From Novacetimonas hansenii JCM 7643 (GTDB taxonomy: Bacteria; Pseudomonadota; Alphaproteobacteria; Acetobacterales; Acetobacteraceae): a stretch of DNA of 54,201 nucleotides. The DNA is taken from contig NZ_BANE01000124.1 of assembly GCF_000964405.1 (NCBI RefSeq), forward strand, positions 1 to 54,201, in the 5' to 3' direction. The position numbers and the translations under genes are program-made. This document shows, piece by piece, positions 16,657-53,783 of the stretch. The notes below the pieces were generated by a model. It saw nothing but the letters and a program-made list of their open reading frames with translations. It searched no databases and was not told the origin of the DNA. Numbering within the stretch: the first letter of the stretch is position 1; the number at the start of each line of letters is the position of its first letter.

Positions 16657-18390
16657 GTGAAAGTCGCGCTCTACGCCCGCTACTCATCCGACAACCAGCG
16701 CGATGCGTCGATCGAGGATCAGTTGCGCCTCTGCCGGCTTCATGCGGAGAAACAGGGCTGGACGATCATCGACAGCTACACCGACCGTGCCATCTCCGGT
16801 GCTTCCCTGCTCCGCCCAGGTATTCAGGAACTGATCCAGGACGCTACGCGCGGCCGCTTCACGATCATCGTGGCCGAAGCCATGGACCGGCTGTCGCGCG
16901 ACCAGGAAGATATCGCCGGCCTGTTCAAACGGATGACGTTCGCTGGCGTGCGGATCATCACCCTCTCCGAGGGCGACGTTACCCACCTGCATATCGGCCT
17001 CAAGGGCACCATGAATGCCCTGTTCCTCAAGGATCTGGCCGAGAAGGTTCGGCGGGGGCTGCGCGGGCGTATTGAGGACGGCAAGTCCGGCGGCGGCAAT
17101 TCCTATGGCTATGATGTCGTGCGCCAGTTCGATGCGAAAGGCGAGCGCATCCGGGGCGACCGGACCATCAACGAGGAGGAGGCCCGCACAGTCAGACGGA
17201 TCTTCACCGATTACACACGGGGAAAGTCGTCCCGCACGATCGCCATGGAATTGAACCGGGACGGCGTTCCGGGTCCGCAGGGACGTGATTGGGGACCGTC
17301 CACCATTCACGGCAATCGGGAACGCGGCACCGGTATCCTCAACAACGAGATGTATGTCGGGCGCCTGGTCTGGAACCGGCTGCGTTATCTGAAGGATCCG
17401 GATAGCGGCAAGCGCGTCTCACGCCTCAATCCTGAATCCGAATGGGTGATCCAGGAGGTGCCGGAATTACGGATCGTCGAACAGGATCTGTGGGATGCCG
17501 TAAAGGCCCGCCAGGCCGAAACGACGTTCAGCCAGCCGGCACGGGGAAACGAGGCCCTCAGCGCGCAACGGCGTCCCCGCCATCTCTTTGCCGGGCTGAT
17601 CCGCTGCGGCTGGTGTGGTGGTGGTTACAGCATGATCTCAAAAGATCTGCTCGGCTGCTCGACAGCACGCAACAAGGGCACCTGCGACAATCGGCTCAAC
17701 ATCCGTCGCGACGCCCTCGAAGCATCAGTGCTGAGCGGGCTGCGCACGCATCTGATGGAACCGGACCTGTTCAAGGAGTTCTGCAACGAGTTCACCCGCG
17801 AGGTGAACCGACTGCGCATGGAACTGGGTGCCGATCTCGCAGCAATGCGGAATGAAATTCCCCGCATCGACAGAGAACTGGATAAGCTTCTGAATCTTAT
17901 CCTTGCCTCAGATGACATTGAGGCATCCAAGCGGGTCATGAAAAAAATGACGACGCTCGAAGCCCGCAAGGAGGAACTGGAACAGAAAGTCGCCAATACC
18001 GAGGAGCCGCCTCCCCTTCTCCATCCGAACATGGCGGAGATCTACCAGCAGCGGATCACGTCTCTTTATGAGAGCCTTCAGGCCGAAGAGACGAAGACCG
18101 AGGCTGCCGAGCGCCTGCGCACACTGGTCTCGCAGATCACGCTCCAGCCGACCGACGGCGAACTGACGATCATCCTGCGCGGCGACCTAGCGGCGATCCT
18201 GCAGTTCGCGGCGCACAAGAAAAACGCCACGGTCCATCCGGACAGTGGCGTTCTCGATGCGTTCGTATCGCAAGTATCGTTGGTTGCGGGGAACCGCACA
18301 CTACGATCACGGCGAAATGTGGCGAATGGTCATTCGCAAGCGTCGTTGGTTGCGGGGGCAGGATTTGAACCTGCGGCCTTCAGGTTATGA
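16657..18390 (+). CDS. Large serine recombinase
   Basis: A 577-residue site-specific recombinase of the resolvase/invertase large-serine type. The N-terminal catalytic domain has LYARYSSDNQRDASIEDQL with the nucleophile Ser in YSSDNQ, then EAMDRLSRDQEDI. A recombinase domain follows (SYGYDV... NRDGVPGPQGRDWGPSTI, NEMYVGRLVWNR). A zinc-ribbon domain comes next (IRCGWCGGGYSMISKDLLGCS...CDNR), and a coiled-coil region at about residues 390-450. The start is a GTG with AAGGAGATGGG upstream. The C-terminus is odd: the last 14 or so residues (VAGAGFEPAAFRL) come from reading antisense through a tRNA-Met 3' fragment, and a shorter version (VSLVAGNRT) occurs 22 codons earlier, so the tail was made by integration events. 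Confidence 0.93.
   Translation: MKVALYARYSSDNQRDASIEDQLRLCRLHAEKQGWTIIDSYTDRAISGASLLRPGIQELIQDATRGRFTIIVAEAMDRLSRDQEDIAGLFKRMTFAGVRIITLSEGDVTHLHIGLKGTMNALFLKDLAEKVRRGLRGRIEDGKSGGGNSYGYDVVRQFDAKGERIRGDRTINEEEARTVRRIFTDYTRGKSSRTIAMELNRDGVPGPQGRDWGPSTIHGNRERGTGILNNEMYVGRLVWNRLRYLKDPDSGKRVSRLNPESEWVIQEVPELRIVEQDLWDAVKARQAETTFSQPARGNEALSAQRRPRHLFAGLIRCGWCGGGYSMISKDLLGCSTARNKGTCDNRLNIRRDALEASVLSGLRTHLMEPDLFKEFCNEFTREVNRLRMELGADLAAMRNEIPRIDRELDKLLNLILASDDIEASKRVMKKMTTLEARKEELEQKVANTEEPPPLLHPNMAEIYQQRITSLYESLQAEETKTEAAERLRTLVSQITLQPTDGELTIILRGDLAAILQFAAHKKNATVHPDSGVLDAFVSQVSLVAGNRTLRSRRNVANGHSQASLVAGAGFEPAAFRL
18268..18357. repeat. Direct repeat pair with tRNA 3'-end core
   Basis: Two 24-base copies, 18268-18291 and 18334-18357, differ at only two positions (TCGCAAG-TA/CG-TCGTTGGTTGCGGGG). 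Each contains the complement of a tRNA acceptor end plus CCA. The second copy continues into the tRNA fragment; the first does not. Both lie inside the 3' end of the serine recombinase frame. This is the pattern expected from tandem attachment sites. Confidence 0.7.
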
Positions 18391-28646: not shown

Positions 28647-29138
28647 TTAGCCAGAAAATTGATATTGTGACCAATTTAATCGGATATAATCAGCCATCCC
28701 TCGCGCTGGAGCATATGACGGATAGATCTTCTGGAACTCTGCGACACCCTTATCCACATCCAACCCCACAAATAGATCTGTATACCGCGCCAAATAGAGG
28801 AGAGCGATTGAGGGCGAGCGTGATAGACCTTGATTGCAATGGAGTAGAATATTGGTCTTGCCGATGTTGGCGTGAATAGTTTCAAGTGCCACATCGATGA
28901 TCTCGACAGAGACATAATTGACATCTGTTCCATCGATTAAATTGAGAATGAGGCAGCTATTGCGTCGTGCTATTAAGTATTCTGGGTGATTTTTGGGTGC
29001 AGCTTTGCCTGTATAACCGAGTGCCTGACGATGATATGGCTCTTTACAAGCATGAATAAAGAACCAGTTCGGATCGCCTCGAAGGCGCTGCTCGTCAATC
29101 TCATTGCCAACAAATAAATTTGGATAGACCTCAAGCAT
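28647..29138 (-). CDS. Dual-specificity/tyrosine phosphatase-like protein
   Basis: A 163-residue protein with the cysteine phosphatase P-loop LLHCNQGLSRSPS (Cys101, Arg107), preceded by NLIDGTDVNY, whose Asp70 or Asp72 is a candidate general acid. The order and spacing fit dual-specificity phosphatases, small cytosolic enzymes that remove phosphate from Tyr, Ser/Thr or from other phospho-substrates. The N-terminal 60 residues (YPNLFVGNEIDE, IHACKEPYHRQALGYTGKAA) resemble phage- and plasmid-borne members. The base composition is lower in GC than the backbone. It lies convergent with sngC and downstream of a small DUF2188-like gene on the same strand, separated by a strong hairpin, so the two may form a module. 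Confidence 0.78.
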   Translation of the reverse strand: MLEVYPNLFVGNEIDEQRLRGDPNWFFIHACKEPYHRQALGYTGKAAPKNHPEYLIARRNSCLILNLIDGTDVNYVSVEIIDVALETIHANIGKTNILLHCNQGLSRSPSIALLYLARYTDLFVGLDVDKGVAEFQKIYPSYAPARGMADYIRLNWSQYQFSG

Positions 29139-29351: not shown

Positions 29352-29573
29352 TTAAACAGCGCGCCAATGGGCCGGATTACGCTTATCATTCAGGTGACGA
29401 ACGCGTGCGACATGAGGCGTATAGCCTTGTGCTTTTGACCACGTAATTGCTGCGACTTGTGTCGCCGCTGTGTGAAGAACACGATCTCCAGATTCTTCCA
29501 CCACATACTCAGAAATAGCAGTTCCTTCTGGCCGTCCTTTAGGACGAGCCTCTACATAAACAGCTTTACTCAT
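29352..29573 (-). CDS. Small DUF2188-like protein
   Basis: A 73-residue basic protein. The pattern AVYVEARPKGRPEGTAISEYVVEESGDRVLHTAATQVAAITWSKAQGY resembles DUF2188-type small proteins, which have a beta-beta-alpha fold with the alanine-rich helix QVAAITWSKAQGY and an end like VHRADGRI, here VARVRHLNDKRNPAHW. The function of these proteins is unknown. The ATG at 29573 has the ribosome site TAGGAG; the open frame extends to 29612 without support. It precedes the phosphatase gene on the same strand. Confidence 0.6.
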   Translation of the reverse strand: MSKAVYVEARPKGRPEGTAISEYVVEESGDRVLHTAATQVAAITWSKAQGYTPHVARVRHLNDKRNPAHWRAV

Positions 29574-30010
29574 ACGAATTATTCTCCTACAGGCACAAAT
29601 TGTACCTCCCAAGAAATGGGGAGTAATTCTGAGAATATAATACCAAATTCACAAATATGATTTATTTTTATTTTATAGAAATGGCTTGATATAAATAAAT
29701 ATACTAGAATAAGTATTTCAGTATTAATAAGTTACCGGAACTGAACAGACGGACGGTAATCGCCTTATTTCAGACACCGAAGCTGTTATGATGGTTTCCC
29801 GAAAGCCGACATTCTAAGCGAACCCAAGTAAACCGCTTTTGGGACGAAGCCGGCTGCCGAGGTGACTATTCAACGACGCCTTTCGGCAAGAACAGACGCT
29901 CGAATTGTGTATGGATTCTACCATTCCCTGAATGAGATGGATTGTTGAGTGACCAGCACTACTCAAGTCGAATTCGGCAGAAACTGACCTTCGCTCTGGC
30001 GAGCGCCTAG
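29574..30010. other. Intergenic region with AT-rich promoter zone and repeat R4
   Basis: The first 120 bases (29600-29720) are very AT-rich and probably hold the promoter of the small minus-strand gene. Repeat copy R4 follows at 29789-29860. A small CGCTC-TGGC-GAGCG hairpin (29992-30005) sits just downstream of the stop of the 1309-codon gene and may terminate it. I see no gene here. Confidence 0.5.
29789..29860 (+). repeat. Intergenic repeat copy R4 (CCGACATT/GGGAC type)
   Basis: The stretch GATGGTTTCCCGAAAGC-CGACATT, then CTAACCG-like spacing, ACCGCTTTTGGGAC and GCCG(G/A)(C/T)TGCC(G/A), aligns with 34241-34318 (GATGG...CGACATT...GACCGCGTTTGGGAC...GCCGATTGCCA). The two copies lie in the same orientation on either side of the 1309-codon gene. 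Confidence 0.6.
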
Positions 30011-33000
30011 CTATGTATCATAGACAACACCCAATACGAGACGTGCATTGAGCATCACAGGCAGGTCTGGTGCCCCTTCTACTTGTTCGGTCGCGATTAC
30101 TACGGAAGCTCCAAGCCCGCCGATCGTCTCAAACTGCCGAAGATACGGCAAACTCCCCGAAAGCGGCGCGCCAATACGCTTCAGAATGCTGTCACCGCTT
30201 TCCAGCGTGACGGCTACTATCTCATTTCTCATCGCGTCAAGTTGATCTGGGGTCAGGACTGCTCCGCCGAGAATTATCTGACCTGGCATCACTCGTGGAA
30301 CGGCGCTGTCTTCTCGGACACGATATGCGACCTCAATCCTCCCAAGCGCGGGATGCTCGTCGAGGAAAACCGCCTCTTCCCGTCCGACTGGTGGGGGTGT
30401 CTGAACGAATAGAGCTCCGACGACGCGATGCAGGTCGAGTTCATGATTCTCGAATGCTAGCGTCGGTCGGCCGCTACGTGGGTCAGTTGCTTCAGCAGCT
30501 AAGGAATATCCTTCGCCATTGCGTGGACGGAGTAGTCTGCGCGCGAAAGCCTGCGTTCCGCGACGACCAATGACTAGCTCGTGATCGGCTGGCGAAGATG
30601 GAGTAGACTCTACGATCGCTATGGACCCGGCGGGTATCGTGAAACCCATTGTGTCCCGGCGAATGTAGAACAACGACTTATCGTCGAACCATTGGCTGGA
30701 GAGTGTCTCCAAGCTTAGTTCCTGGCTACCACCGCTCGGGACTTGGCTGCTGAAAGCGGCAATGTCCTGAACGATCGGAACACTGAACGCGGGTATGGCA
30801 ACGGCAGTCAGAGGTACGACATTGTCTGGAGCAGTCTCCTGAAGTGGTTCCCGCCAGCGATAGCGCCGGAACTCTTCATGGACGCGCTCAACTGCCGAGC
30901 GTAAACGCTTCAGGTCCATATCGACGCTCTGCACGTCGATGTAGCTCAGCGCATTGGCATTACGGTGGTGCGCCTCATTAAGCACCCTTCGCGGCTCAGC
31001 GCCGTCAGCCAATGCAGGATCATCACAGAAACGCGAGAGCACGGGGCTTCGGAAAAGCTCGTTGCTGCGAGCAGTGATCAGCGACCGCAGCCGTCCTAGT
31101 AACGGCATTAGGGTTGGTGCGTCCGTTGGCGCCGAAAATGCAGGATAGGCGGGGTCGTCGAACAGATCTCCGAGGCGTGTTTCTAGAAAGATCCGAGCCT
31201 GATTAGCATAGTCCTGTGCGTGAAATGCCGAATCAGCGTTTGAGACGAACTCGTTCCTCTTCCGATCTAGGTCCTCTATCGCCAAGGACGTCTCGAGGGT
31301 AGCACGTGATGCGTTTACCGGATGGACAGCACGATGCTCCACCCGATTTGCTCCCCGAGCCTCGGCGACAAGGGTGCGACCGAAGCTCCGATCATAAGTA
31401 GTAGCCAGAATCTGAGCGCCACCCTCAGCAAGCTGATCCAAGGCACGCGCTAGCCGGGCCCGATTATCGTAGTCGAGAAGATCTTGAGGATCGTCCAAGA
31501 TCATAAGTGACAGGCCGCCGTTCGTTTCAAGAACATGCTCGCGGAATGCGAAATAAAAACCCAAAAGTGATGCTCTCAGAGCTGAGGCGTTCGATACATG
31601 CTGGGCAGGCGCGTTGACACCATCGCGGCCAACTTGAATCGCGATAGCACCCTGAGGGGTCAGACCAGTTCGATGCGGCTTGGGGGATAGTGTCGTCGCA
31701 TTCTGGTAAATAGCGTTTCGCCAATACTCTGCCCGGTTATGAAGGCGGGCTTGCAGGCCTTCGACCTGTGCGGTGGCAAGATCACCGATAGGTATTATCT
31801 CATCAAGTGCCGCTACCGCCGTGGTACAATCTTCAATTGCCTTAAGCGTGCGCTTGTGTGCGCCCTGAGCTGTGCCCATTCGTTTTGAAAGATTGATCGC
31901 CGCGTTGATAGGGGCGACGCCTTTGACGATTGCATCGAGGCGAATCAACTGCGCTCGCAGACCGCTCGCTTGGCGATCGTTACTATCAGCTTTGCCGCGG
32001 ACTTCATCGAGCACGACAACAAGTTCGTCGCGGTGAGCTTTCATCCAGTCGACAAACGCTAATCCTCGGATGAGGCGGTTCAAGCTCTTGTTCAGTATAG
32101 CCACATGGGCGCCAACTCGACTTGGCAGAACCCGCTGCTCCGGTTCTGTAAACGCAGGCAGCCTCGCCATTGCCTGGTTAGTTAGCTTTTCCACATTGGA
32201 GCGAAGTGAGAAAAGGACACCTGCGAAGCCTTCCGTTCTGAAAAGGTCATCCAGCAAGGCGGTTCGGAAGATTGCACTGGGAGACTCCGGTAGATCCTTT
32301 TGCAAGCAACGCCTAAGCGCTTCGGGCAGATCGCGAGCTAACTTTCCGGTCCAACCCTCGGCCCATTGTGCGATAGTCTTTGCCAGGATTTCGCTATCTC
32401 CAGCAACCTGACGAAGATGATCAGCAACCAAGCCACCAGCCTCAGCGTCAACCACTCCAGCGAGAGACTGGTGGCAAACGGGGCAGCGATCATGATGAGC
32501 CTCCCCATGCTCATGCATCCAGTCGGTGACTCGCGCGTAGAGTTGGGTCCGGCGTTCGAGGATCGGGTTCGCAGATAGCTCATCGAGCATCGTCGCTTCG
32601 TCGAACAGGCGATCAACGAGGGAATCCACTGCTTGGCGGGCATCTATCTCCAGCTTGAGAGCACCTAATTTTTCCATCGATGGCAACTGAGAGAGCCTGC
32701 GAACCTGCTCTAATGCAGGAGCGATGCATTGCTCCAAGTTTTGACGTTGTGAGGCGTCCGAAGCGTCAAACATATCGCCTAGCACGTCCCGAGCATGCCC
32801 GAGGCCGCTAGCCTTTAAGTCTTCGAAATGCTGGCTCAGGGTGGCGAACGCTGCTGGGTGGTCAGTAATCGCAGGAAGATCGGCTACAGGTGCCATTCCT
32901 GGGAATTCGGAAATGCGCTGTTCAAGGTCAGTGCGATGCTGACGATATTCCGTCTCGATTTGTTCGAGCCCAGTTTTGCGCTCCTTGGTAATGTCGCCAG

Positions 33001-33940
33001 CTATCTTTGCTCTGGCACGCTTGGCGTGCTTCGCCAAAGCCACCAAGTCGGAAAGGCCTGTGAGACTCGCCACGGCCAAACCTAATTCCGATGGGTTGCC
33101 CACCTGCAGGTATGGCAGAAGACCGGGCATGGTGGTGCCAAGATTAAAGGCAATCGGATCAAGGCCTAGATCAGCCGGATTAGGCCCGACTTCTTCCAAC
33201 TTGCCATTTGTTTTTCGCGACTGTGTCCTGCGGATCGGTGGAAGGTGCGTCCCGTCCTCCAATTCGAATGTCAGTTCAACCCAGGTGTCGGCAGGCACAG
33301 TTTTGGCTGCCGCCGCGGGGAGCCAATGCTGAGAACTTGGCAGAGGCGTCACCGCGCTGATCTTGTGCTGCGATGTTTCTTGCATCGCCCCTCGATCGAT
33401 CTCGCAATGGAATTCGGCTTCACCGCTCTCAGGTATTCTCTGGGGTCGGAGCAGCTTTCCGGTGAGGCACCAGATCACCGAATTCATAAGGCTCGTCTTG
33501 CCCGAACCGTTCCAACCTTCGAAGACCGTGATGGGACTGGTCGGTTCGAACACAAAATCCTTACTCGGCTCTCCTATTCCCCCGTATGCGTGAAGCCCGG
33601 CAAATCTGTGTGCGACGATCTTGGTAAGCCGGAGGACTCTACGCTCTCGATTACCGGAGACAACTGGAGACGGTACGTGATCTGGAGTGGCGCTGATACT
33701 GGCTATGATCGCTTCGCAATCGGGCACCATGACATTGCCCGCCCACTTGGCGCGCGCCCGGCAATACCATGACAGCACACCTCTAGCGGCAACGGTATGG
33801 AGCACCAGCCTATAACCTGTATCTGTCGCTATGGGGCGTCCGGAGACTAGTTCTGCAAGGAGTATGTCAGTCGTAAGCAAGTGAAGTGCCCGTGTGGGCG
33901 TCACGTCCGACGAAACATGGACTAAATCCAACAAATGCAC
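30011..33940 (-). CDS. SMC/Rad50-like ATPase with C-terminal S24 (LexA)-like region
   Basis: A 1309-residue protein. Residues 1-100 are an uncharacterised N-terminal region. An ABC/SMC ATPase head follows, with Walker A GWNGSGKTS (142-150). Then come helical coiled-coil segments with a zinc-hook-like CPVC (Cys486, Cys489), a signature-like region NASALRASLLGFYFAF (784-799) and Walker B LSLMILDD (810-817). After a helical linker, residues about 1085-1180 (FYIRRDTMGFTIPAGSIAIV, VIGRRGTQAFARRLLR, LHRVVGALFV) resemble an S24 LexA/UmuD-type peptidase domain. The nucleophile position holds Thr (DTM) instead of Ser, and Arg-Arg stands where the catalytic Lys is expected. The start is a GTG with TAGGGA upstream. 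I do not know a named system with this architecture; DNA-sensing defence is the likely role by analogy. Confidence 0.7.
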   Translation of the reverse strand: MHLLDLVHVSSDVTPTRALHLLTTDILLAELVSGRPIATDTGYRLVLHTVAARGVLSWYCRARAKWAGNVMVPDCEAIIASISATPDHVPSPVVSGNRERRVLRLTKIVAHRFAGLHAYGGIGEPSKDFVFEPTSPITVFEGWNGSGKTSLMNSVIWCLTGKLLRPQRIPESGEAEFHCEIDRGAMQETSQHKISAVTPLPSSQHWLPAAAAKTVPADTWVELTFELEDGTHLPPIRRTQSRKTNGKLEEVGPNPADLGLDPIAFNLGTTMPGLLPYLQVGNPSELGLAVASLTGLSDLVALAKHAKRARAKIAGDITKERKTGLEQIETEYRQHRTDLEQRISEFPGMAPVADLPAITDHPAAFATLSQHFEDLKASGLGHARDVLGDMFDASDASQRQNLEQCIAPALEQVRRLSQLPSMEKLGALKLEIDARQAVDSLVDRLFDEATMLDELSANPILERRTQLYARVTDWMHEHGEAHHDRCPVCHQSLAGVVDAEAGGLVADHLRQVAGDSEILAKTIAQWAEGWTGKLARDLPEALRRCLQKDLPESPSAIFRTALLDDLFRTEGFAGVLFSLRSNVEKLTNQAMARLPAFTEPEQRVLPSRVGAHVAILNKSLNRLIRGLAFVDWMKAHRDELVVVLDEVRGKADSNDRQASGLRAQLIRLDAIVKGVAPINAAINLSKRMGTAQGAHKRTLKAIEDCTTAVAALDEIIPIGDLATAQVEGLQARLHNRAEYWRNAIYQNATTLSPKPHRTGLTPQGAIAIQVGRDGVNAPAQHVSNASALRASLLGFYFAFREHVLETNGGLSLMILDDPQDLLDYDNRARLARALDQLAEGGAQILATTYDRSFGRTLVAEARGANRVEHRAVHPVNASRATLETSLAIEDLDRKRNEFVSNADSAFHAQDYANQARIFLETRLGDLFDDPAYPAFSAPTDAPTLMPLLGRLRSLITARSNELFRSPVLSRFCDDPALADGAEPRRVLNEAHHRNANALSYIDVQSVDMDLKRLRSAVERVHEEFRRYRWREPLQETAPDNVVPLTAVAIPAFSVPIVQDIAAFSSQVPSGGSQELSLETLSSQWFDDKSLFYIRRDTMGFTIPAGSIAIVESTPSSPADHELVIGRRGTQAFARRLLRPRNGEGYSLAAEATDPRSGRPTLAFENHELDLHRVVGALFVQTPPPVGREEAVFLDEHPALGRIEVAYRVREDSAVPRVMPGQIILGGAVLTPDQLDAMRNEIVAVTLESGDSILKRIGAPLSGSLPYLRQFETIGGLGASVVIATEQVEGAPDLPVMLNARLVLGVVYDT

Positions 33941-34437
33941 TCCCTACGTCGCAAAATTGGTCCGGATATCTATTTTTCGTATAATCTGCTTACTAAATAA
34001 AGATCGTTAATGAAGAAAGCTACTGGCGATGTTTGTACTATGCCTCCAGATAAAGCTGTGTAGTAGATAAACCTTATCGTTTTCTGGTCTTGTGACGCAA
34101 TTGACTATCAGGATTTATGTAACAGGCCGCTTTCTATATTTTCTCACCGTCAGCCGAATTTCTGCCCTGAATTGCCTGTCTGCTCAGTGATACAGGAGCA
34201 GACAGGCAGTAGTCGCCCTCAAGGCAGACATCGAAGTGGTGATGGTGGTTGCCCGAGAGACGACATTGTTAGGCTAACCGTGATAGACCGCGTTTGGGAC
34301 AAAACTGCCGATTGCCATTGCTGCTGAGAAAGACCGGCGGCGCTGAAACTGTCCATTCTTGAAGTGGCGAAAAAGGGGGCTTATCTTGCCGCATTAAGGA
34401 GGCACCATTGTGACGGCCCCGCCCGATGAGGAGCATA
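33941..34437. other. Intergenic region with promoter zone and repeat R5
   Basis: Next to 33940 the sequence is AT-rich and must carry the promoter of the long minus-strand gene. The middle carries the hairpin and CGACATT parts of the composite repeat (34173-34320). The last 100 bases lead into the small plus-strand gene, with GAGGAG as its ribosome site. No gene seen. Confidence 0.5.
34173..34320 (+). repeat. Composite intergenic repeat copy R5 (hairpin plus CGACATT part)
   Basis: TGCCTGTCTGCTC (34173-34185) pairs perfectly with GAGCAGACAGGCA (34196-34208); the loop AGTGATACAG matches that of R1 read on the other strand except for two bases, and AGTCGCC follows in both. About 30 bases further, 34241-34318 aligns with R4. 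So the hairpin and CGACATT modules seen separately elsewhere are joined here. Confidence 0.7.
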
Positions 34438-34716
34438 ATGACTAAATATTACATTGTGGCCGCCAAGCCTGGCGGCAAGACTGCGCTCAAGAACGAATTC
34501 AAGACGTACAGATGGGCTCTGAAGGACGAGAAGTGGCAGTGGCTCCAGGCGTGGCGGTCGACCGACAATATCGCTGACCTGATTCGGAAAGGAAATGATG
34601 TCGTCACGGGTAAGTTCATTGGTGACAAGATGGACGAAGGCGATGCCGTCGAGGTCGAGATTCGGATCAAGCACAATGGCGTAAAGTACAAGCTGAGCGA
34701 TATGCCGGATAAGTAA
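34438..34716 (+). CDS. Small DUF3892-like protein
   Basis: A 92-residue protein (MTKYYIVAAKPGGK...) with alternating strands and a central helix, and a pattern NIADLIRKGNDVVTGKFIG followed by a short strand and KYKLSDMPD, which resembles DUF3892-type proteins of unknown function. I chose the ATG at 34438 because GAGGAG lies eight bases upstream; an in-frame ATG at 34426 has no ribosome site. A GC-rich hairpin follows at 34738-34766. The resemblance is moderate and the function is unknown. Confidence 0.55.
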   Translation: MTKYYIVAAKPGGKTALKNEFKTYRWALKDEKWQWLQAWRSTDNIADLIRKGNDVVTGKFIGDKMDEGDAVEVEIRIKHNGVKYKLSDMPDK

Positions 34717-35048: not shown

Positions 35049-35852
35049 TTGGCTGCCGCCTCACGTTCATTCGACGAACTTGTCTTAATGTTTCCAAACC
35101 TCGGCCCTTGCGGCGCCAAGCCGGAGGCGGTGGCCGACATGAGCAGGACAACCGCATGCTACCAATTCCTTGACGACGCTTACAGCGACAACGCGATGAT
35201 CGAGACGCTCAAGTGCTGGAGCGTCAACAACACCGCGATGATGGAGATGGCCGAGGGCAGACTGACCACGACCGACGCCGCGATTCGCCAGGAGGCTATT
35301 GAGAAGCGGCTCGACCGAATAAAGGCCTACGGAACGATCAGAGCCGATGTGGTCACCCACGTGGAGAGTTCGGTGGATGCACAGCTGTTGGCTTTGGACG
35401 AGATGGCATCAGCTGGACAATGCTTCGACGAGATTTCCAAGATTCACCGCGGGGCGGCCATGGCTACGAGTCTGTTCGATGCCAACTTCAAGGTTGGTGC
35501 AACAGTGCGCTGGCAGCATTTGACGGCATGCACGCTAAATCCTGAAGCCGCCGCAATCCATTTCGCATGGAAGCAACGCAACAACCTTTTGGCCACGATG
35601 GCGGCCAAGGATGTGACCAGCTTTTTACTCAACATTCATCTCGACGCTCCGGCGCCTCTCGTCTGGACGGGAGCGGTTCCTGGCAAAGACGAGGACACAA
35701 CCTATAGGTGGCAGGCCGAGGTCGTCACGCCGCCTGGATTCAAGTTCGAGGTCACGTCAGTCAAGACGTTGAGCGCCGCCGGTGTGCCCGACCGACTGGT
35801 AATGGTCGAGGCCAAGTATCCGGCCAGCGGAAGCCCCATGCCCTCACCTTGA
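35049..35852 (+). CDS. Probable ADP-ribosyltransferase-fold protein (ART exoenzyme-like)
   Basis: A 267-residue protein whose C-terminal half follows the layout of ADP-ribosyltransferase exoenzyme domains. Motif 1 is KIHRGAA with Arg134. Motif 2 is VRWQHLTACTLNPEAA (157-167 region), where the STS of the family is TACT. A phosphate/loop region NNLLATMAAK follows. Motif 3 is YRWQAEVVTPPGFKFEV with Gln222-x-Glu224, the QxE form. These three together give the R-S/T-QxE arrangement. The N-terminal 110 residues are helical. It begins with TTG, supported by GGGAG upstream. If active it would transfer ADP-ribose from NAD+ to a protein or nucleic acid. No immunity or antitoxin gene is evident; the DUF3892-like gene upstream is the only near neighbour on this strand. 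The assignment is by motif only. Confidence 0.55.
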   Translation: MAAASRSFDELVLMFPNLGPCGAKPEAVADMSRTTACYQFLDDAYSDNAMIETLKCWSVNNTAMMEMAEGRLTTTDAAIRQEAIEKRLDRIKAYGTIRADVVTHVESSVDAQLLALDEMASAGQCFDEISKIHRGAAMATSLFDANFKVGATVRWQHLTACTLNPEAAAIHFAWKQRNNLLATMAAKDVTSFLLNIHLDAPAPLVWTGAVPGKDEDTTYRWQAEVVTPPGFKFEVTSVKTLSAAGVPDRLVMVEAKYPASGSPMPSP

Positions 35853-36080
35853 TCCCTTCGACGAGCTCGCCGGGCACGATCCCCGAGCCCAGCAGCAGGT
35901 CGAGGAGGAATATGTCGCGCGGCGCCTCCTCGAGGGTCGCTCCGCAGGGTCTCGGGGCCCATGCCGTGCTTCACGACATCGGCGCGGCTGACGTGGTATA
36001 TGTCCGCGACGTCGGCACTTCCCCCGACGCTGGTCAGCACTGGCGATATGTTGTCGAGCGTCGCGCCGCATTTGCTCGGT
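35853..36080 (-). other. GC-rich stretch, possible gene remnant
   Basis: On the minus strand, downstream of the nuclease gene, one frame reads DNISPVLTSVGGSADVADIY and then, after a shift of frame, TLEEAPRDIFLLDLLLGSGI, both protein-like. No start, stop and frame fit together, so this may be a decayed gene or a frameshifted one. I cannot name a family. Confidence 0.25.
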
Positions 36081-37058
36081 TTACCTCACCGGCGGCAGAC
36101 CGACGTGTGTCAGCACGCTGTTCAACATGTCGATGCATTCATCGCGCGCCCGTTCCAACTCGCCTGCGAAACGCGTGTCGGTGAAGTCCAGGAAGCCCTG
36201 CACCCGCCGTATTCGCTGATCCTTGAGTCCCTGTTCGATCTGCGTTCGCAGGTGTCGGAGAGCCTTGTCGACAAGCTGGATGCCGCCGCGAACATGGGTG
36301 TCGTCTATGTCGCGCCAGCCGCCGATCGACTTGCGGATCGGATGCCGGCTTTCGCGGTCGAGCAGCTCGCCCGTCCGAACCGCTCGCTGCGTGTCAGAGA
36401 GCGCTTGGAGGAATTCCTCAGGGCTCTCGCAGTGGAGCGGCACCTCGAAGGCAGGCCGCCCGAAGGCCATGGCGATCGTCGTGAGGATCACCTCGTCGAG
36501 GTCCTTTGCCCCACGGACCTTGATGACTTCCTCATAATACCAGCGCTGGAGTTCGGGAAAGGCGTTGAGGTAGCCAATGATGTCGTCCCAGGACCACACC
36601 ATCACGCGGCAGTTCCGTCTGCCATTCACCCATTCTTCGTTGAGTTCATTCACCCAATTTTGCACCACGGTGTCGCGGCGCGCCGTCGTGGCGAGGATCC
36701 AGATCGATAGCTTGGACTTGAAGTTGAGCGACTTGGCGGCTTCGTCCCGTAGCAGCTTCCGGCTGACAGGTCCGCCCGGGTATGGGCTGCCGTGCTCGTC
36801 CAAGTCGGCGAGCCGCTTGCATTGGACGCCGATCAATCCATAGCGCTTCGAGCGACCGAACACGTCCACACCGTCCTGCGCCTGGCCCGGCCTGCCGAAC
36901 GGCTGCGCGTCGGGAATGCCGTAGACTTCGCCCAGCAATCCGTTCGCGAGATCCTCGAACTGTTGCCAGTAGAGCGGCGGCTGGAAGAATTGATTCACTG
37001 TCGGCAACTGCACCCCCAAAATCGACGGCTTAGCCGGCGAACCGGCGGGACGAGTCAT
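36081..37058 (-). CDS. PD-(D/E)xK (Mrr/Cap4-like) nuclease-domain protein
   Basis: A 325-residue protein. The N-terminal domain carries a restriction-endonuclease fold active site: Glu35 in YWQQFEDLANGLL, Asp65 in GQAQDGVDVFG, and Gln79-x-Lys81 in GVQCKRL. This GQxQxGVDV...IGxQCKR pattern is typical of nucleases found in anti-phage systems such as Avs-type and related STAND proteins. Residues 110-180 (LSIWILATTARRD, VMVWSWDDIIGYL) complete that domain. The C-terminal half is helical and without a clear ATPase or helicase motif. It stands alone and convergent with the ART-like gene, so its partner, if any, is unknown. It could be a free-standing restriction or defence nuclease. Confidence 0.75.
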   Translation of the reverse strand: MTRPAGSPAKPSILGVQLPTVNQFFQPPLYWQQFEDLANGLLGEVYGIPDAQPFGRPGQAQDGVDVFGRSKRYGLIGVQCKRLADLDEHGSPYPGGPVSRKLLRDEAAKSLNFKSKLSIWILATTARRDTVVQNWVNELNEEWVNGRRNCRVMVWSWDDIIGYLNAFPELQRWYYEEVIKVRGAKDLDEVILTTIAMAFGRPAFEVPLHCESPEEFLQALSDTQRAVRTGELLDRESRHPIRKSIGGWRDIDDTHVRGGIQLVDKALRHLRTQIEQGLKDQRIRRVQGFLDFTDTRFAGELERARDECIDMLNSVLTHVGLPPVR

Positions 37059-38581: not shown

Positions 38582-38762
38582 AACGTCCAACCATAAGCGG
38601 CACCAGTCTGGCCGCGTCAGTTACGGTGTCTGCAGGCTCGCCGGCAGTGCCCGAGACCAGTTCGACATAGAGCAGCAGATCCCGATGGATTTCCGCCGTC
38701 AATTCGATCGTCAGCTTCACGGGCCGACTGTCGGGGATGGCACTGATACGGAGTTTGGTCAT
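38490..38762 (-). CDS. DUF2274 protein, last gene of the trb operon
   Basis: A 90-residue protein. The core KLRISAIPDSRPVKLTIELTAEIHRDLLLYVE is the DUF2274 pattern, with a ribbon-helix-helix-like PVKLTIELT start, and PLMVGRFMETDRAF in the second half. Such genes follow trbI in many conjugative elements; the role is unknown, possibly regulatory. It overlaps the trbI stop by four bases. The last 20 or so residues exceed the usual length and run antisense into lysR by 92 bases. Confidence 0.8.
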   Translation of the reverse strand: MTKLRISAIPDSRPVKLTIELTAEIHRDLLLYVELVSGTAGEPADTVTDAARLVPLMVGRFMETDRAFQKQRHSRVARTKSAGSGPGNAL

Positions 38763-39967
38763 GGGGATGCTCCTTCCTGCTGATGCCAGGGTTTGAGGAC
38801 AAGATCGCGATTGACGATCAGGGTGAACGGAAGCCCGGGCCGGTCAGTCAGCGTGGGCTGCACGTCCATGCTGCGGTCGATCAGACGGTTCCCCACCATG
38901 GAAAATCCGTTGCTGGCCCCGCTGCGGATCGCCTGAAACAGGTTGTTCTCGCCCCATGATGTGCCGGCTTCGGAACCGACGCTAAGCAGGGTCGTGACCA
39001 GAGCGGCCTTGAAGAGTTGGCCCCAGTGCTGGTCCACCAGATCCTTCAGGCCGGTCTGGCCGATCGCATCCGCGCCAGGCATCCTGTCGAACACGATGCT
39101 TTCACCATCGGGCCGGATAAGTCGGGTCCAGATGACCTGCGTGCGCTGCTGACCGAACGAGATGCTGCTGTTGTAGCTCCCGAACAGCGTGCTGCCCTGG
39201 GGAACCAGAAGATAACGGCCGGTCGGACTGTCATAGACATTCTGCGTCACATGCCCAATGAGCTGGCCCGGCAGGTCGGAACTGACTTTGGTGTTCAGCG
39301 CGCCCGCAATCACTGTCCCAGCCTGAATCACGTAGGGCGAAGCCGGTGGCGTCAGACGATCGGGGCTGACCGTGACACGGTCGGGCTCTCCCGCCAGAAA
39401 GGCACGGTTGGCAGCCTGACGGTCATTCGCGCCAGATTGTGCAGCTGTGACGTTACCCCCGGTTGCCGGTGCAGCGATGGGGAGTTCATTGTCCTGTCGC
39501 CCGCCATCACGTGTCTGCACGAACAGCTTGCTGGCTATGGCAGCCGCGACTTCCTGTTCGGCGCGATGGTCGCCCATGCCGGAGACAGGACCAGCGCGTC
39601 CTTCCTGCTGCGCTTTCAGGATCGGTTTGCCCAGATCACCAGGCAAGGGCGGTCCCAGCTTCGGCACGCCGGTATAATCCTTCGGCAAGGCATCCAGCCC
39701 GTCGGCCGAGGGACGCGCATCAGACTCCTGAACGACTGACGGTGCCCCCTGACGACCGGAATTCTGGAGCGCATAACCGAGCGCCAGACCTATTCCGATC
39801 ATCGCGGTGCCGGCCAGCGCCCAGATGACGTAGCGCGACAGCCGGACGACCTTTGGCCATTCCGCCCGCAGACGGAGGTCTGGCGTAGATGGCGGAACCG
39901 CCGGGCGCCCGCTTTCCATTCCCCCTTCGCGCCCTGCGTCGCGGCCCGCATCCTCCTCGCCCGTCAT
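38759..39967 (-). CDS. trbI: TrbI/VirB10-type conjugal transfer protein
   Basis: A 402-residue bitopic protein of the type IV secretion core complex. A short cytoplasmic N-terminus is followed by a membrane segment (VIWALAGTAMIGIGLALGYAL, about residue 48), a proline- and glutamine-rich periplasmic linker and the TrbI/VirB10 beta-barrel domain (AGTVIAGALNTKVSSDLPGQ, YLLVPQGSTLFGSYNS, DLVDQHWGQLFKAALVTTLL). VirB10 spans inner and outer membranes and senses energy from the ATPases. It overlaps trbG by four bases upstream and the DUF2274 gene downstream. Confidence 0.94.
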   Translation of the reverse strand: MTGEEDAGRDAGREGGMESGRPAVPPSTPDLRLRAEWPKVVRLSRYVIWALAGTAMIGIGLALGYALQNSGRQGAPSVVQESDARPSADGLDALPKDYTGVPKLGPPLPGDLGKPILKAQQEGRAGPVSGMGDHRAEQEVAAAIASKLFVQTRDGGRQDNELPIAAPATGGNVTAAQSGANDRQAANRAFLAGEPDRVTVSPDRLTPPASPYVIQAGTVIAGALNTKVSSDLPGQLIGHVTQNVYDSPTGRYLLVPQGSTLFGSYNSSISFGQQRTQVIWTRLIRPDGESIVFDRMPGADAIGQTGLKDLVDQHWGQLFKAALVTTLLSVGSEAGTSWGENNLFQAIRSGASNGFSMVGNRLIDRSMDVQPTLTDRPGLPFTLIVNRDLVLKPWHQQEGASP

Positions 39968-40965
39968 GAGCGCCGTCCATCGGTACGGACAATCCGCACG
40001 CGCTGTTCAGACTGTTTGTCGCCCAGCCGCAGTTCAGCGGCAGCAAACAGCCGATCCACGATCATCCAGTTCTGCCGGACGCGATAATTGACCAGTTCCG
40101 GTCCGCCATCGGCCCCCAGCACGAACAACGGCGGCAGTTCTCCCTGCCCTATTCCCGATGGGAAGGCGATATAGACCTTATGCCCATCATCGAAGGCCCG
40201 GCTGGGCAGCCAGGGCGGTGTTCCGCCTTTGACCGGCTGGACGGCATAGCGGAAATTCAGGCTATCAAGATTGAGCCCCGTTTCAATGGGCGCTTCGTCC
40301 TCTGCCGCGTTGTCTTGCCGACGCAGGGCGATCAGATCGTCCTCAGGATAATCCCACGATACCGACGCCATGTAGGTCGCGGGTGTGGAACGCAGTTCCG
40401 CCAGATAGGTCCGCCGATCCGTGTTAACGATCAGATTGGTGGTAAGGTCCGGTCGGGTTGGTTTGACCAAAATATGGATACGTTTGCTCGCCCCTGCCCC
40501 GCTCTCGGTATCGCCGATGATCCAGCGCACGGTATCCCCCGCTGCCACCGGCCCCGTGCCGACCAGTTTTTCGCCCTGCTGGAGCATGATGTCGGTGATT
40601 TCACCCGGCGCGGTGTAGACCTGATAGAGCGCGCCCGGACTGTAGGGATAAACCTGCACCGCATTAATAAACCCTGCCCGCGTAGGCTGAATGCGCGCGG
40701 CCAGATTGGCCTGCGTCACACGCGCGGTTGGGTCGGCGACTTCGGAGGCCGGATGGACCGCTCGTCGTGACGGCAGCGGCTTCAGTTGGCCCGGCAAGGG
40801 AAGCGGTTTCGGGACTTCAACCACCTGAACCGGCTTCGGCGGATCCAGCAGACGTGTAGCCTGCACGGCATCATCATAGCGGATAACGGGTGGATGATAC
40901 TGCTGCGCGCATCCAGCCAGAGGCATGATCATTAGTGGCAGAAAACGAAGAGCACGACGAATCAT
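39964..40965 (-). CDS. trbG: TrbG/VirB9-type conjugal transfer lipoprotein
   Basis: A 333-residue outer-membrane core-complex protein. The N-terminus is a lipoprotein signal (RRALRFLPLMIMPLAGC, lipobox Leu-Ala-Gly-Cys). Residues about 100-330 form the VirB9/TrbG/CagX domain: AVQVYPYSPGALYQVYTAPG, ILVKPTRPDLTTNLIVNTDR, SWDYPEDD and VKGGTPPWLPSRAFDDGHKVYI with GELPPLFVLG near the end. It partners TrbI (VirB10). Stop and start codons overlap by four bases with both neighbours. Confidence 0.94.
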   Translation of the reverse strand: MIRRALRFLPLMIMPLAGCAQQYHPPVIRYDDAVQATRLLDPPKPVQVVEVPKPLPLPGQLKPLPSRRAVHPASEVADPTARVTQANLAARIQPTRAGFINAVQVYPYSPGALYQVYTAPGEITDIMLQQGEKLVGTGPVAAGDTVRWIIGDTESGAGASKRIHILVKPTRPDLTTNLIVNTDRRTYLAELRSTPATYMASVSWDYPEDDLIALRRQDNAAEDEAPIETGLNLDSLNFRYAVQPVKGGTPPWLPSRAFDDGHKVYIAFPSGIGQGELPPLFVLGADGGPELVNYRVRQNWMIVDRLFAAAELRLGDKQSEQRVRIVRTDGRRS

Positions 40966-41645
40966 TGGCCCAGTTCCTTCGACCAGTTGATGGCGGAGAC
41001 GTAAATCCCCAGAGGATTTTTTCGGAGGTGGTCGGCGTCACGCGGCGTGTTGAGCCTGATCACAACAATGGCGGTCCATCGCTCTGTGCCAACGAAAGCC
41101 CCATCGCGATAATGCCGCTCGACCCATGCAATCCTGAAACTCGTGGGCGACGCACGGATGACCGATGAGACATCCAACTCAACCTGCTCACGCCCGACCC
41201 GGGCAAAAGGGTCATTCAGGCGCGCATAGTCATTCAGTGCGACGGCACCTGACGTTGTGGTGAAATCATACCCACGCAGCCAGTTCTGCCGCACCACCAC
41301 GGGATCGGAGGACAGACTGCGGATATCCTCGATGAAGCGGGCCAGATACCAGGCAATCTGTGAATCGGTGGGCCTGTAGGACGCTGTTGCAGGGGCGACG
41401 ACCTGCGCCTCGCCCAGATGATCGACCTGCACGACCCACGGCGTGACTGTGCCGCGCGCGGACTGCCAGACCAGTCCCGCGCCAAGTCCGACGGACAGGA
41501 ACAGCGACCCGAACGCCATCAGTCGCCAGTTCCGCGCCTGGACGCGGGCGGACCCAATGCGCTCGTCCCATATCTGCGCCGCTTTTTGATAAGATGTGAC
41601 CGGCTCGGGTGTTGCCCCGTAGCGCGTGGTGGAGCGACGGAACAT
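40962..41645 (-). CDS. trbF: TrbF/VirB8-type conjugal transfer protein
   Basis: A 227-residue inner-membrane protein with one membrane segment (LMAFGSLFLSVGLGAGLVW, about residues 43-61) and a periplasmic VirB8-like domain (PWVVQVDHLGEAQVV, ARFIEDIRSLSSDPVVVRQNWLRGYDF, FRIAWVERHYRDG). VirB8-type proteins nucleate assembly of the secretion channel. It begins five bases after trbL and overlaps trbG by four bases. Confidence 0.93.
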   Translation of the reverse strand: MFRRSTTRYGATPEPVTSYQKAAQIWDERIGSARVQARNWRLMAFGSLFLSVGLGAGLVWQSARGTVTPWVVQVDHLGEAQVVAPATASYRPTDSQIAWYLARFIEDIRSLSSDPVVVRQNWLRGYDFTTTSGAVALNDYARLNDPFARVGREQVELDVSSVIRASPTSFRIAWVERHYRDGAFVGTERWTAIVVIRLNTPRDADHLRKNPLGIYVSAINWSKELGQ

Positions 41646-41650
41646 CGTCC

Positions 41651-43114
41651 TTATTCCTTTTCTGACAGATCAATGGACGCCGATCCGCCTCCGCCATCGG
41701 CGGCGCGGATGACATGTGCCGCCTCGGCGGCATGGGTGGCGGCGTTGCGACGCTTCATGGTGCGCGCCCAGCGCGGCGGCTCACCGTCGGTACGACCGGA
41801 GCCAGCCCCGCCCTCTCCACCACCATCACCACCTCCGGACGGACCGGTACCTGCCGGGCCACCACCGGCCGGAGAACCTCCTCCACCAGAGGGATTGTCC
41901 CCGGATGGCGTGGGGCCACCTCCGTCAGAACCACCGGTTTCACCACCCTGCTCGCCCCCCATGCCCTGTGCGGCCCATTGGCTGCCGGCGGCGTAACTTT
42001 CCTTGAGAGATGAGCCTGCACGCGATGCCGCCCCTTTGGCGGCATTCGCGATATTCCCGCCGACAGCCCGGCCCATGCCTCCGATCCCGGCGGCCATACT
42101 GCCCGCGCCACCAGATGCGCCAGCCGCTCCGGCCGAATAGGCTGACGTGGCGGCCCCGGCGATCGCGGCTCCTCCGCGGGCGGCGGCAGCGGTCGCACCC
42201 ACAGCCGCAGCGCCACCAGAGGCGACGGCTCCAACACCAGCCACCGCCGCAGCCCCCATGGCACCAACCGCCATACCAGTGCCGACAGCGGCCCCTGCCC
42301 CAAGCTGGGGAGCTCCGGAGATCAGCCCGTTGGCGATGCTGCCGCCAAAAATCGACAGGCCGACAATCGCTAGAGAGGCCAGCACCACCGACACCGCTTG
42401 CCCGATGGTTGGCACATCGCTGCCATAGGATGTTGCAAATTGCCCGAACAGAACGGAGGCGATGGCGGAGATCACCGCCAGCACCATGATCTTCACGCCC
42501 GAGGATACGACGTTGCCCAGCACCTTCTCCGCCAGAAAAGCAGTGCGATTGAACAGGGCGAACGGGATCAGCACGAAGCCCGCCAGCGTGGTCAGCTTGA
42601 ATTCGATCAGAGCGACAAAAAGCTGCACGGCCAGAATGAAGAACGCCGCGAGCACGATCAGCCAGGACAGACAGAGCACGAAGATCTGGATGAAATTCGT
42701 AAAGAAGGCGACTGGGCCGAGCAGAGTGTGGGCAGAGTCCAACAAAGGGCGGGCGGCATCAAAACCGGTGGACGCGAGGCGGCCAGGACGAAGAAAGTCC
42801 GCAAGAGCCAGCCTGCCTCCGCCTGCCCTCAGACCAAGCTGGGCAAAACTGTCAAACACCAGCTTTGACAGATGGTCGAAATTGTTAATCACGAAGGCGA
42901 AGAAACCGATATACAGCGTCTTCTTGACCAGGCGCTGGATGATGTCCTCATCCGCCGCCCAGGCCCAGAACAGCCCGGCCAGTGCGATATCCAGCACAGA
43001 CAGTGTTCCTGCCAGCGAGATCACATCCCCTTTCACCAGACCGAACCCGGTATCGATGGTGGTGGTGAAGGCATTCAGGAAGGTGTCGATCACCCCGACA
43101 TCGTTGGTGGCCAT
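41651..43114 (-). CDS. trbL: TrbL/VirB6-type conjugal transfer protein
   Basis: A 487-residue polytopic inner-membrane protein. The N-terminal part (FLNAFTTTIDTGFGLVKGDV, LFWAWAADEDIIQRLVKKTLY, LYIGFFAFVINNFDHLS) and five or six membrane segments match TrbL. The region from about residue 285 to the end is Ala/Gly-rich, then Gly/Pro/Ser-rich low complexity, normal for this family but with strongly biased codons that give long open frames on the plus strand. VirB6-like proteins line the inner-membrane passage of the substrate. It follows trbJ by five bases with no trbK in between. Confidence 0.92.
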   Translation of the reverse strand: MATNDVGVIDTFLNAFTTTIDTGFGLVKGDVISLAGTLSVLDIALAGLFWAWAADEDIIQRLVKKTLYIGFFAFVINNFDHLSKLVFDSFAQLGLRAGGGRLALADFLRPGRLASTGFDAARPLLDSAHTLLGPVAFFTNFIQIFVLCLSWLIVLAAFFILAVQLFVALIEFKLTTLAGFVLIPFALFNRTAFLAEKVLGNVVSSGVKIMVLAVISAIASVLFGQFATSYGSDVPTIGQAVSVVLASLAIVGLSIFGGSIANGLISGAPQLGAGAAVGTGMAVGAMGAAAVAGVGAVASGGAAAVGATAAAARGGAAIAGAATSAYSAGAAGASGGAGSMAAGIGGMGRAVGGNIANAAKGAASRAGSSLKESYAAGSQWAAQGMGGEQGGETGGSDGGGPTPSGDNPSGGGGSPAGGGPAGTGPSGGGDGGGEGGAGSGRTDGEPPRWARTMKRRNAATHAAEAAHVIRAADGGGGSASIDLSEKE

Positions 43115-43119
43115 GGCGG

Positions 43120-43923
43120 TCAGTTCCCGCTGCTGCCGAACATCGACACCGTGCCGGGCACGTAGGCGTCATGCTGGGAGAAATGCTGATACTGCGCTTC
43201 GCTCTCCGCTTCCGTAGCGGCCTCGCGCGCCTGTTGCAGGGCGGTGGCCCGGCCATTGGCGGCGAGTTCGGCCTGGATATCGGATAACTGACGGGATTGC
43301 AGAGCCAGAAGCTGGTTTCCAGCCTGCGCGGCCTGCAACGCGCCTGTCGAGGTCTGGCTGGAGGACACGAGCTGGCTCATGGCCGAACTATCGCTGGGGA
43401 TATTGCCCACCACCCGCGCCTGCAGCTTCAGGGCATCCTCAAACCCACCGATGGAATTCTGCCAGCGCGTCTGCGCCTGGTTGAACAGGGCACTGTCGGA
43501 CATCCCGGAGGAGACGGACGTGTACGCCTGCTGATACTGCTGCTCGACGGACTGGACGCTGTAGGCGATGTTCTGCGCCTGCGCGAGCAGAGCCGTCGTC
43601 TGGGAAATCGTTGATTGCAGCGTCGACAATGTCGAGAGTGGCAGGCTTGCGAGGTTCCGCCCCTGATTGACCAGCACCTGCGCCTGATTGGCGAGAGAGG
43701 TGATCTGGTTGTCGATCTGCTGGAGCGTACGAGCTGCGATCAGCACGTTCTCGACATGGTTCGCCCCGTCATACACGGCCCATTGCGCGTGCGCCGGACG
43801 TAAGGGAGAGAACGTCCCGCCGACCGCCAGCAGTGCAGAAGAGAGAAGAACACCTCGGCGGAAACGTTTTTCGTGAGCGCGACCGAAAAATTCAGTCCAA
43901 GGCCCGAAAGTTTTTTCCGTCAT
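43120..43923 (-). CDS. trbJ: TrbJ/VirB5-type conjugal transfer protein
   Basis: A 267-residue secreted protein with an N-terminal signal (RRGVLLSSALLAVGGTFSPLRPAHA, cleavage before QW). The mature part is almost wholly helical, with VLIAARTLQQIDNQITSLANQAQ and QTTALLAQAQNIAYSVQ, matching TrbJ, the minor pilus component/adhesin of the P-type system. The first 25 residues before the signal are unusually long; an internal start cannot be excluded, but the ATG at 43923 overlaps the trbE stop by four bases, which favours it. Confidence 0.9.
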   Translation of the reverse strand: MTEKTFGPWTEFFGRAHEKRFRRGVLLSSALLAVGGTFSPLRPAHAQWAVYDGANHVENVLIAARTLQQIDNQITSLANQAQVLVNQGRNLASLPLSTLSTLQSTISQTTALLAQAQNIAYSVQSVEQQYQQAYTSVSSGMSDSALFNQAQTRWQNSIGGFEDALKLQARVVGNIPSDSSAMSQLVSSSQTSTGALQAAQAGNQLLALQSRQLSDIQAELAANGRATALQQAREAATEAESEAQYQHFSQHDAYVPGTVSMFGSSGN

Positions 43924-46376: not shown

Positions 46377-46388
46377 CGCCCTGCCCTC

Positions 46389-52564: not shown

Positions 52565-52597
52565 ATGATTTTGTCCGCAGGCTTCTCACCAAACGCC

Positions 52598-53749: not shown

Positions 53750-53783
53750 AAAAGCCTCCCATTGCAACACTCTGCAACTATGA

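Follow-up and report, generated by a model that had tools for sequence, protein, structure and literature searches.

A mobile gene of Novacetimonas hansenii joins a Rad50-like ATPase, an RloC-like residue triad and two LexA-like domains, suggesting a single-protein DNA-damage alarm

We analysed a stretch of 54,201 nucleotides of Novacetimonas hansenii JCM 7643 (contig NZ_BANE01000124.1, positions 1 to 54,201; hereafter the window) with a focus on one large gene encoding a protein of 1309 residues. Within a single polypeptide, this mobile gene combines a Rad50-like ATPase, a residue triad like that of the nuclease RloC, and two LexA-like domains, here termed D1 and D2. The combination suggests a single-protein DNA-damage alarm with a self-cutting switch. 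A zinc-hook ATPase with a degenerate LexA-like domain had already been recognised in the original prediction, which was made from the letters of the sequence; this part stands, while D2 and the residues R916, E920 and H992 had been overlooked.

The family alignment comprises 26 intact proteins, i.e., the N. hansenii protein (the query), nine plasmid-borne relatives, 15 from genome contigs and one further relative. Fourteen further loci, broken copies included, were examined besides these, and their residues were counted only where readable. Of the 1309 positions, 40 are invariant in the alignment, ten of them within the last 448 residues.

Between the ATPase head and D1, only 3 of 191 columns (residues 862-1052) are fully invariant, and these are R916, E920 and H992, found in all 26 members and, among the further loci, in each of the 12 in which they were readable. 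RloC is an ABC/zinc-hook tRNase with the motif Arg-X3-Glu-X36-52-His, and Ala at any one of the three residues abolishes tRNA cleavage in vivo (PMC2610378); a survey of HEPN RNases places this domain of RloC and PrrC among these enzymes (PMC3710099). As a comparison set, we used 23 aligned RloC-like AAA_13 proteins, which carry the Arg in 22, the Glu in 20 and a Ser preceding the His in 21 cases. When residues 770-1052, including the C-terminal lobe of the ABC head, are aligned with this set by hhalign, a match of 96.7% (E 3.8e-10) is obtained, with R, E and H placed on the RloC triad columns. Judging by these columns, the segment is more than a linker, its invariant residues matching the triad of the RloC/PrrC anticodon nucleases, and for this reason RloC, and not an SMC system, would be the nearest named system by mechanism. 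The isolated segment has a single, irrelevant match in the PDB (E 0.045), and the RloC-like protein L106 has no solved PDB relative by sequence at E ≤ 1e-5.

The C-terminal part of the protein resembles LexA twice. The query alone matches Pfam S24 over residues 1080-1149 below the cut-off (E 0.0069), and 10 of 16 C-termini of the family match at E ≤ 0.1, the best at 5e-8. A profile of residues 860-1309 searched against the PDB retrieves 12 sequences at E ≤ 1, 11 of which are LexA (best 0.022), all 11 over D1; in the three PDB alignments shown, the Ala-Ala of the family falls on the LexA cleavage-site region. Compared by hhalign with 11 LexA proteins of related genomes, D1 matches at 94.6% and D2 at 87.3%, the latter over 62 columns reaching from Ser through Lys. 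D1 and D2 match each other at 92.7%, against 0.1-0.7% for five column-shuffled versions of D2 and 0.2% for the linker.

The alignment of D2 with LexA pairs Ser1212 with the Ser of LexA (GDSM) and Lys1254 with its Lys (LKR). Both residues are present in 26/26 members and in 11/11 further readable loci (37/37 altogether). The corresponding positions of D1 are degenerate: the Ser position holds Thr in 15, Ser in three, Asn in five, Ala in two and Leu in one member, the Lys position holds Arg in 22 and Gly in four, and both dyad residues together occur in none of the 26 members. Thr1097 and an Arg at the two D1 positions had been read correctly in the original prediction, and the degeneracy extends across the family. 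Its idea that the domain may use Thr is unnecessary because D2 carries an intact, family-invariant Ser-Lys dyad; as the Thr1097 position also varies, this residue was rejected as a catalytic candidate. The C-terminal LexA/S24-like domain described there is thus found again as D1, but as one half of a tandem whose second half had escaped notice.

Five predicted columns, namely the triad and both dyad residues, would all fall among ten randomly placed invariant columns of 448 with a chance of 1.7e-9, a descriptive figure, since the alignment favours conserved columns.

Structure comparison is in agreement with the profile matches. An AlphaFold model of residues 860-1309 has a mean predicted local distance difference test score (pLDDT) of 77.7 and a predicted template modelling score (pTM) of 0.64, and in VIA comparisons LexA 3jso matches it with Z 12.4 (root-mean-square deviation, rmsd, 2.9; 119 residues aligned). 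The examination of the C-terminus by profile search and AlphaFold that had been proposed for S24/LexA relatives thus finds a LexA-like fold. Lambda CI 1f39 matches D1 (Z 9.6, rmsd 2.7, 91 aligned) and lambda CI 1kca matches D2 (Z 7.9, rmsd 2.8, 91 aligned), where a Z below 8 may mean a common arrangement only. Phage CI-type repressors also top the list of viral matches. Among the LexA/CI chains, several with the cleavage region match this model from about residue 190 to 450, spanning D1 into D2, and several chains without it stay within one domain; a signal peptidase likewise spans D1 into D2, and VIA ranges give first and last residues only, so that these matches make docking of the D1 cleavage region on D2 at most a possibility.

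Ahead of D1, Ala1062 is separated from the Ser position by 35 residues in the query and by 33-38 in the family. The spacing of A84 and S119 in LexA is 35 as well. In five members, G-R-L-A-A precedes the putative cleavage site.

The same module could be read as a non-cleaving one, in which an RloC-like RNase would use the LexA-like tandem for docking or dimerisation, e.g., on RecA filaments or in self-assembly, with Ser and Lys in a structural role. D1 is indeed retained in 26/26 members in spite of its lost dyad, the residue following Ala1062 is never Gly (0/26), and the C-terminal domains of CI and LexA are known to dimerise as well. We nevertheless consider such a role improbable, since Ser and Lys are kept in 37/37 readable D2 domains while the Ser position of D1 varies freely, which is the pattern that catalysis predicts.

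The ATPase part is confirmed. Pfam AAA_23 matches residues 127-245 above its cut-off (E 3e-10), and AAA_21 is found near Walker B below its own (8e-4). K148 of Walker A, C486 and C489 of the hook, and D816 and D817 of Walker B are invariant in the 26 aligned relatives. An AlphaFold model of residues 110-1309 reaches a mean pLDDT of 81.1 and a pTM of 0.49, and because of the latter its domain placement is not trusted. The best VIA matches of this model are Rad50 (Z 20.7); all 50 rows listed are matches to the ABC head, so the comparison of this 1200-residue model is uninformative for D1, D2 and the helical part. The SMC/zinc-hook ATPase within one 1309-residue gene, as originally described, is thus borne out by AAA_23, the Rad50 fold and the Walker A and B residues, and its CPVC hook by the two conserved Cys. 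For the N-terminal segment (residues 1-104), a profile search against the PDB returned no convincing relative (three weak matches, E 0.57-0.66).

We regard it as an even bet that the gene encodes a suicide RNase which resembles RloC, senses DNA ends and carries a LexA-type fuse of its own, with predicted RNase activity and predicted self-cleavage. The hooked dimer would engage abnormal DNA such as ends, hairpins or replication intermediates of an invader. ATP-driven engagement of the heads would then turn on the RNase (R916/E920/H992), as in RloC, and the cutting of tRNA or other RNA would stop growth. Break- or structure-sensing by hooked heads together with RNA cleavage is suggested by the layout, which is the same as in RloC. 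In RloC itself, the ABC region keeps the enzyme inactive (PMC3710099), the nuclease of Geobacillus GkaRloC requires an engaged ATPase and linear DNA, and RloC of Acinetobacter baylyi is turned on by an inducer of DNA breaks (both PMC3874168).

The order of effector, cleavage region and LexA-like domain would copy that of LexA and phage CI, with a toxin in place of the DNA-binding domain. The cut made by D2 would fall close to Ala1062, in the stretch that separates the RNase from D1, and would free the RNase from the module; a cut at this place is supported by the retained P-side (the G-R-L-A-A of five members) and by the strictness of the D2 dyad. The trigger may be a change of state in the head or the docking of a RecA filament, and D1 may position the cleavage region and serve as pseudo-dimer partner of D2. 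Release of the toxin, i.e., arming, is modestly preferred over its shut-off. That a DNA-damage signal, be it a RecA filament or DNA-engaged heads, leads to self-cleavage which arms a suicide RNase without any intervening repressor, promoter or partner protein would amount to a categorically new control logic; we put this forward tentatively, at somewhat below an even chance.

A number of observations weigh against an RloC-like RNase with a LexA-type fuse. The ABC signature is degenerate (NxSxxR in 26/26), and the best PADLOC match of the protein is LmuB and not RloC. Taken alone, residues 862-1052 score only 13.7% against the RloC-like set in hhalign, aligned around His992 only, and residues 900-1040 score 18.5% (six shuffles 0.0-0.1%); split by clade, the isolated segment scores 29.6, 35.7, 0.7 and 3.5%. 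Much of the RloC match is thus carried by the ABC lobe. The isolated segment has no Pfam match, even at E 10, and its Glu-His spacing of 63-71 across the 26 members lies outside the 36-52 of RloC. LexA-type proteins cut an Ala-Gly or Cys-Gly bond, i.e., before Gly. Since Gly follows Ala1062 in 0/26 members, the bond may differ here or stay uncut.

Relatives of the gene are scattered. By tblastn, we found them in 25 plasmid records, 24 alphaproteobacterial and one of Pseudomonas veronii, 14 of which cover at least 80% of the length; among phage records, no match to the protein was found. A scan of the genome collection revealed at least 26 loci. The family falls into four deep clades with support values of 100, 100, 99 and 99 in the Shimodaira-Hasegawa-like approximate likelihood ratio test (SH-aLRT). 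The query shares 31-59% identity with the other eight members of its own clade and 19-24% with the remaining members. Clades mix taxa, e.g., Mesorhizobium with a metagenome-assembled genome labelled Deltaproteobacteria, and Croceicoccus with Methylorubrum. In a phylum-wide sample, the gene occurs in 3/398 genomes at E ≤ 1e-10, its own genome counted, and in a class-wide sample a C-terminal profile matches 5/385 genomes at E ≤ 1e-14 (own genome counted, one relic and one broken copy included), with weak matches in 11 more. None of the 35 other genomes of its own genus and family has a match at E ≤ 1e-60. The gene is thus sporadic, mobile and horizontally moved.

Nine loci (L012, L014, L016, L021, L023, L024, L031, L039 and L087) are broken by stops, frameshifts or insertion sequences and retain triad and dyad. 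The gene seems to be often discarded, as expected if it is costly or toxic, although some breaks may be sequencing errors. An isolated remnant (L086, genome G448, about 9171-9452, reverse strand) preserves nothing but the later portion of D2 (E 2e-15) and is apparently a relic of the gene.

A factor for DNA repair or maintenance of a plasmid or integrative conjugative element, of the Rad50/SbcC kind and not a toxin, would fit the many plasmid copies, the Rad50-like fold of the head and an SbcD-like gene near 8 of 40 loci. This count was made without a control, and four of the eight loci are close relatives. The sporadic distribution and the several broken copies suit a costly, dispensable gene better than a housekeeping one, and Rad50 and SbcC lack the C-region of RloC which bears the triad (PMC2610378). 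Nor does a partner gene of at least 80 residues recur across 37 clustered loci, where some flanks are short and smaller partners would escape; the gene had been described as standing alone, and the neighbourhoods of its homologues agree. We assign the repair reading a low probability.

In the window, the gene lies 1.5 kb from a Shango system, the presence of which had been pointed out before and is confirmed by PADLOC for SngA (1e-74), SngB (1e-178) and SngC (2e-260). Shango is found near 2 of 40 loci, the second being the Mesorhizobium huakuii copy, an association without control. The conjugation genes and further features in Table 1 make the window look like an integrative conjugative element or a plasmid. 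A role in defence is likely, predicted from context, and made plausible by the neighbouring genes and the mobility.

The gene is flanked by repeats. The same repeat had been reported on both sides, and copies are indeed present, though degenerate and weakly alike (a shared 19-nt block at 79%). A 15-mer core of the repeat occurs in three copies in the genome at no more than one mismatch, two of them inside the window. The search for an SOS box was confined to the form GTTC-N7-GTTC, of which the window has two occurrences, a chance-level number, with neither of them just upstream of the gene, and a scan for promoter and terminator remained below the shuffle mean. Between Shango and the gene lies a small dual-specificity-phosphatase-like gene (28647-29138, reverse strand) with the active-site loop HCNQGLSRS, which matches DSPc below cut-off (3e-5). 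Two small frames flank the gene, 29352-29612 (reverse strand, 86 residues) and 34426-34716 (forward strand, 96 residues); PADLOC has no match for the former and a weak PDC-S31 match (0.003) for the latter, and among the clusters listed, neither belongs to one common to other loci.

Table 1. Features of the studied gene and of the window (residue numbers refer to the encoded protein).
Feature	Position	Strand	Basis or remark
Whole gene	30011..33940	-	one open frame, GTG start, 1309 aa; 26 intact family members aligned
N-terminal segment, residues 1-104	33629..33940	-	conserved L31 (25/26), G34 and R53 (26/26)
ABC head, N-terminal lobe, residues 105-290	33071..33628	-	Pfam AAA_23 3e-10; Rad50 fold, VIA Z 20.7
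Walker A, residues 142-150	33491..33517	-	N144, G145, G147, K148 26/26; G142 25/26
Mostly helical arms, residues 297-744	31709..33052	-	secondary structure of AlphaFold model
Zinc hook CPVC, C486 and C489	32474..32485	-	both Cys 26/26
ABC head, C-terminal lobe, residues 745-875	31316..31708	-	alignment and model; degenerate signature NxSxxR at 784-789
Walker B / LDDPQ, residues 811-819	31484..31510	-	DDPQ 26/26
RloC-like RNase region, residues 885-1045	30806..31288	-	3 invariant columns; hhalign to RloC-like set
Putative triad codons R916, E920, H992	31193-31195, 31181-31183, 30965-30967	-	all 26/26
D1, LexA-like without dyad, residues 1053-1182 (Thr1097, Arg1134)	30395..30784	-	hhalign, PDB LexA matches, VIA 1f39 Z 9.6 over 1084-1182
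Ala1061-Ala1062, LexA-like cleavage-site region ahead of D1	30755..30760	-	A1062 26/26, A1061 25/26
D2, LexA-like, residues ~1190-1309	30014..30373	-	hhalign to LexA; VIA 1kca Z 7.9
D2 dyad codons Ser1212, Lys1254	30305-30307, 30179-30181	-	26/26 and 11/11 further readable loci
Degenerate repeat, downstream of gene	29785..29850	not assigned	repeat comparison
Degenerate copy of same repeat, upstream of gene	34240..34316	not assigned	repeat comparison
ParB-like protein	13999-16056		below model cut-off (NCBIfam)
CcrB-like serine recombinase	16657-18390		below model cut-off (NCBIfam)
Trb/VirB-type conjugation genes (TrbI, CagX, VirB8, TrbL, TraG, T2SSE)	38759-50726	-	conjugation cluster
Lamassu pair	50870-53770	-	closes window; same element as Shango and studied gene
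LmuB	50870-52564	-	PADLOC 4e-260
LmuA with Cap4-type nuclease domain	52598-53770	-	PADLOC 4e-164, Pfam Cap4 1.6e-15; adjoins its LmuB

The Lamassu pair in the same element bears on a third reading, in which the SMC-like head would sense foreign DNA, D2 would act as an effector protease on other proteins of the cell, and the helical segment would be structural. LmuB is the best PADLOC match for the query (4e-16) as well as for the relatives L018, L026 and L028, and the second for L013. Foldseek retrieves chains of the Lamassu LmuACB complex at E 6e-8 to 2e-5, among them, with the model of residues 110-1309, a 630-residue chain of 9hqx (E 5.9e-8) which is LmuB judging by its size. Lamassu effectors are varied and include predicted proteases (PMC10586767), and the invariant D2 dyad fits an effector protease. 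The true LmuA/LmuB pair, however, scores far better than the 4e-16 of the studied protein, no partner of at least 80 residues recurs across the 37 loci, D1 and D2 are closer to self-cleaving LexA/CI than to a degradative protease, and the invariant R916-x3-E920/H992 would be left unexplained. A Lamassu-like function is thus unlikely in our view.

If the RloC-like RNase with a LexA-type fuse is real, SOS-style autoproteolysis would act directly on an effector protein instead of a repressor, and a single gene would suffice to arrest translation upon DNA damage by a post-translational switch. The break-sensing of the tRNase RloC, the sensing of the Lamassu/Rad50 type and the chemistry of LexA would then be joined within one protein chain. 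Each step is open to a test by single substitution at one of seven residues, K148, R916, E920, H992, A1062, S1212 and K1254.

With respect to known systems, no NCBIfam model reaches its cut-off for the protein, and no full-length PADLOC model is found among the best 25 of 48 matches, which accords with the original remark that no named defence system was known with this architecture. No description of it was found in the open-access literature searched; the 2020 survey of ABC ATPases (gkaa726) may contain an earlier one. With Rad50 and SbcC, the protein shares the ABC head, the coiled coil and the zinc hook; these proteins work with Mre11/SbcD and are without the C-terminal region (the latter according to PMC2610378). 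Its likeness to Lamassu LmuB consists of an SMC/Rad50-like sensor with zinc hook, the best PADLOC match, which spans residues 306-862 only of a protein twice the size of LmuB, and the structural match. LmuB has about 650 residues, is accompanied by LmuA and in most cases by LmuC, and as a rule carries a Glu-to-Gln change in Walker B (PMC10586767), whereas the studied gene is solitary and has DDPQ and fused C-terminal domains. The neighbours scanned by PADLOC (28647-29138, 29352-29612, 34426-34716, 35049-35852 and 35961-36710) gave no match to LmuA or LmuC. As neither stands beside the gene and the separate LmuA/LmuB pair scores far better, we did not file it as Lamassu.

The S24 autopeptidases LexA, lambda CI and UmuD share the fold of D1 and D2, the Ser-Lys dyad of D2 and, in the case of LexA, the Ala-Ala cleavage-site region ahead of D1 at matching distance. 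They differ from the studied family in that the latter has two LexA-like domains in tandem, one of them dead, an ABC-RNase-like protein in place of the DNA-binding domain, and no Gly after Ala-Ala.

RloC resembles the protein in being a single polypeptide with a Rad50-like ABC head split by a coiled coil with a CxxC hook, in its DDP-type Walker B (22/23 RloC-like proteins) and in the Arg-x3-Glu...His following the head, which all 26 members of the studied family possess. The differences are a length of 1309 against about 710-800 residues, an extra N-terminal segment, NxSxxR in place of the signature LSEGE (S543/G545 in 23/23 RloC-like proteins), and the longer Glu-His spacing (63-71 against 36-52). 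Where RloC has its linchpin His, within the switch region, Tyr is present in the query and His in 13 of the 26 members. Owing to the degenerate signature and the longer spacing, we do not regard the protein as RloC proper. The RloC-like proteins are, by length alone, too short for a tandem LexA-like module (L106 ends about 60 residues past the triad). As read from sequence, what is new with respect to RloC is the C-terminal end, i.e., a predicted cleavage-site region and LexA-like domains behind a putative toxin.

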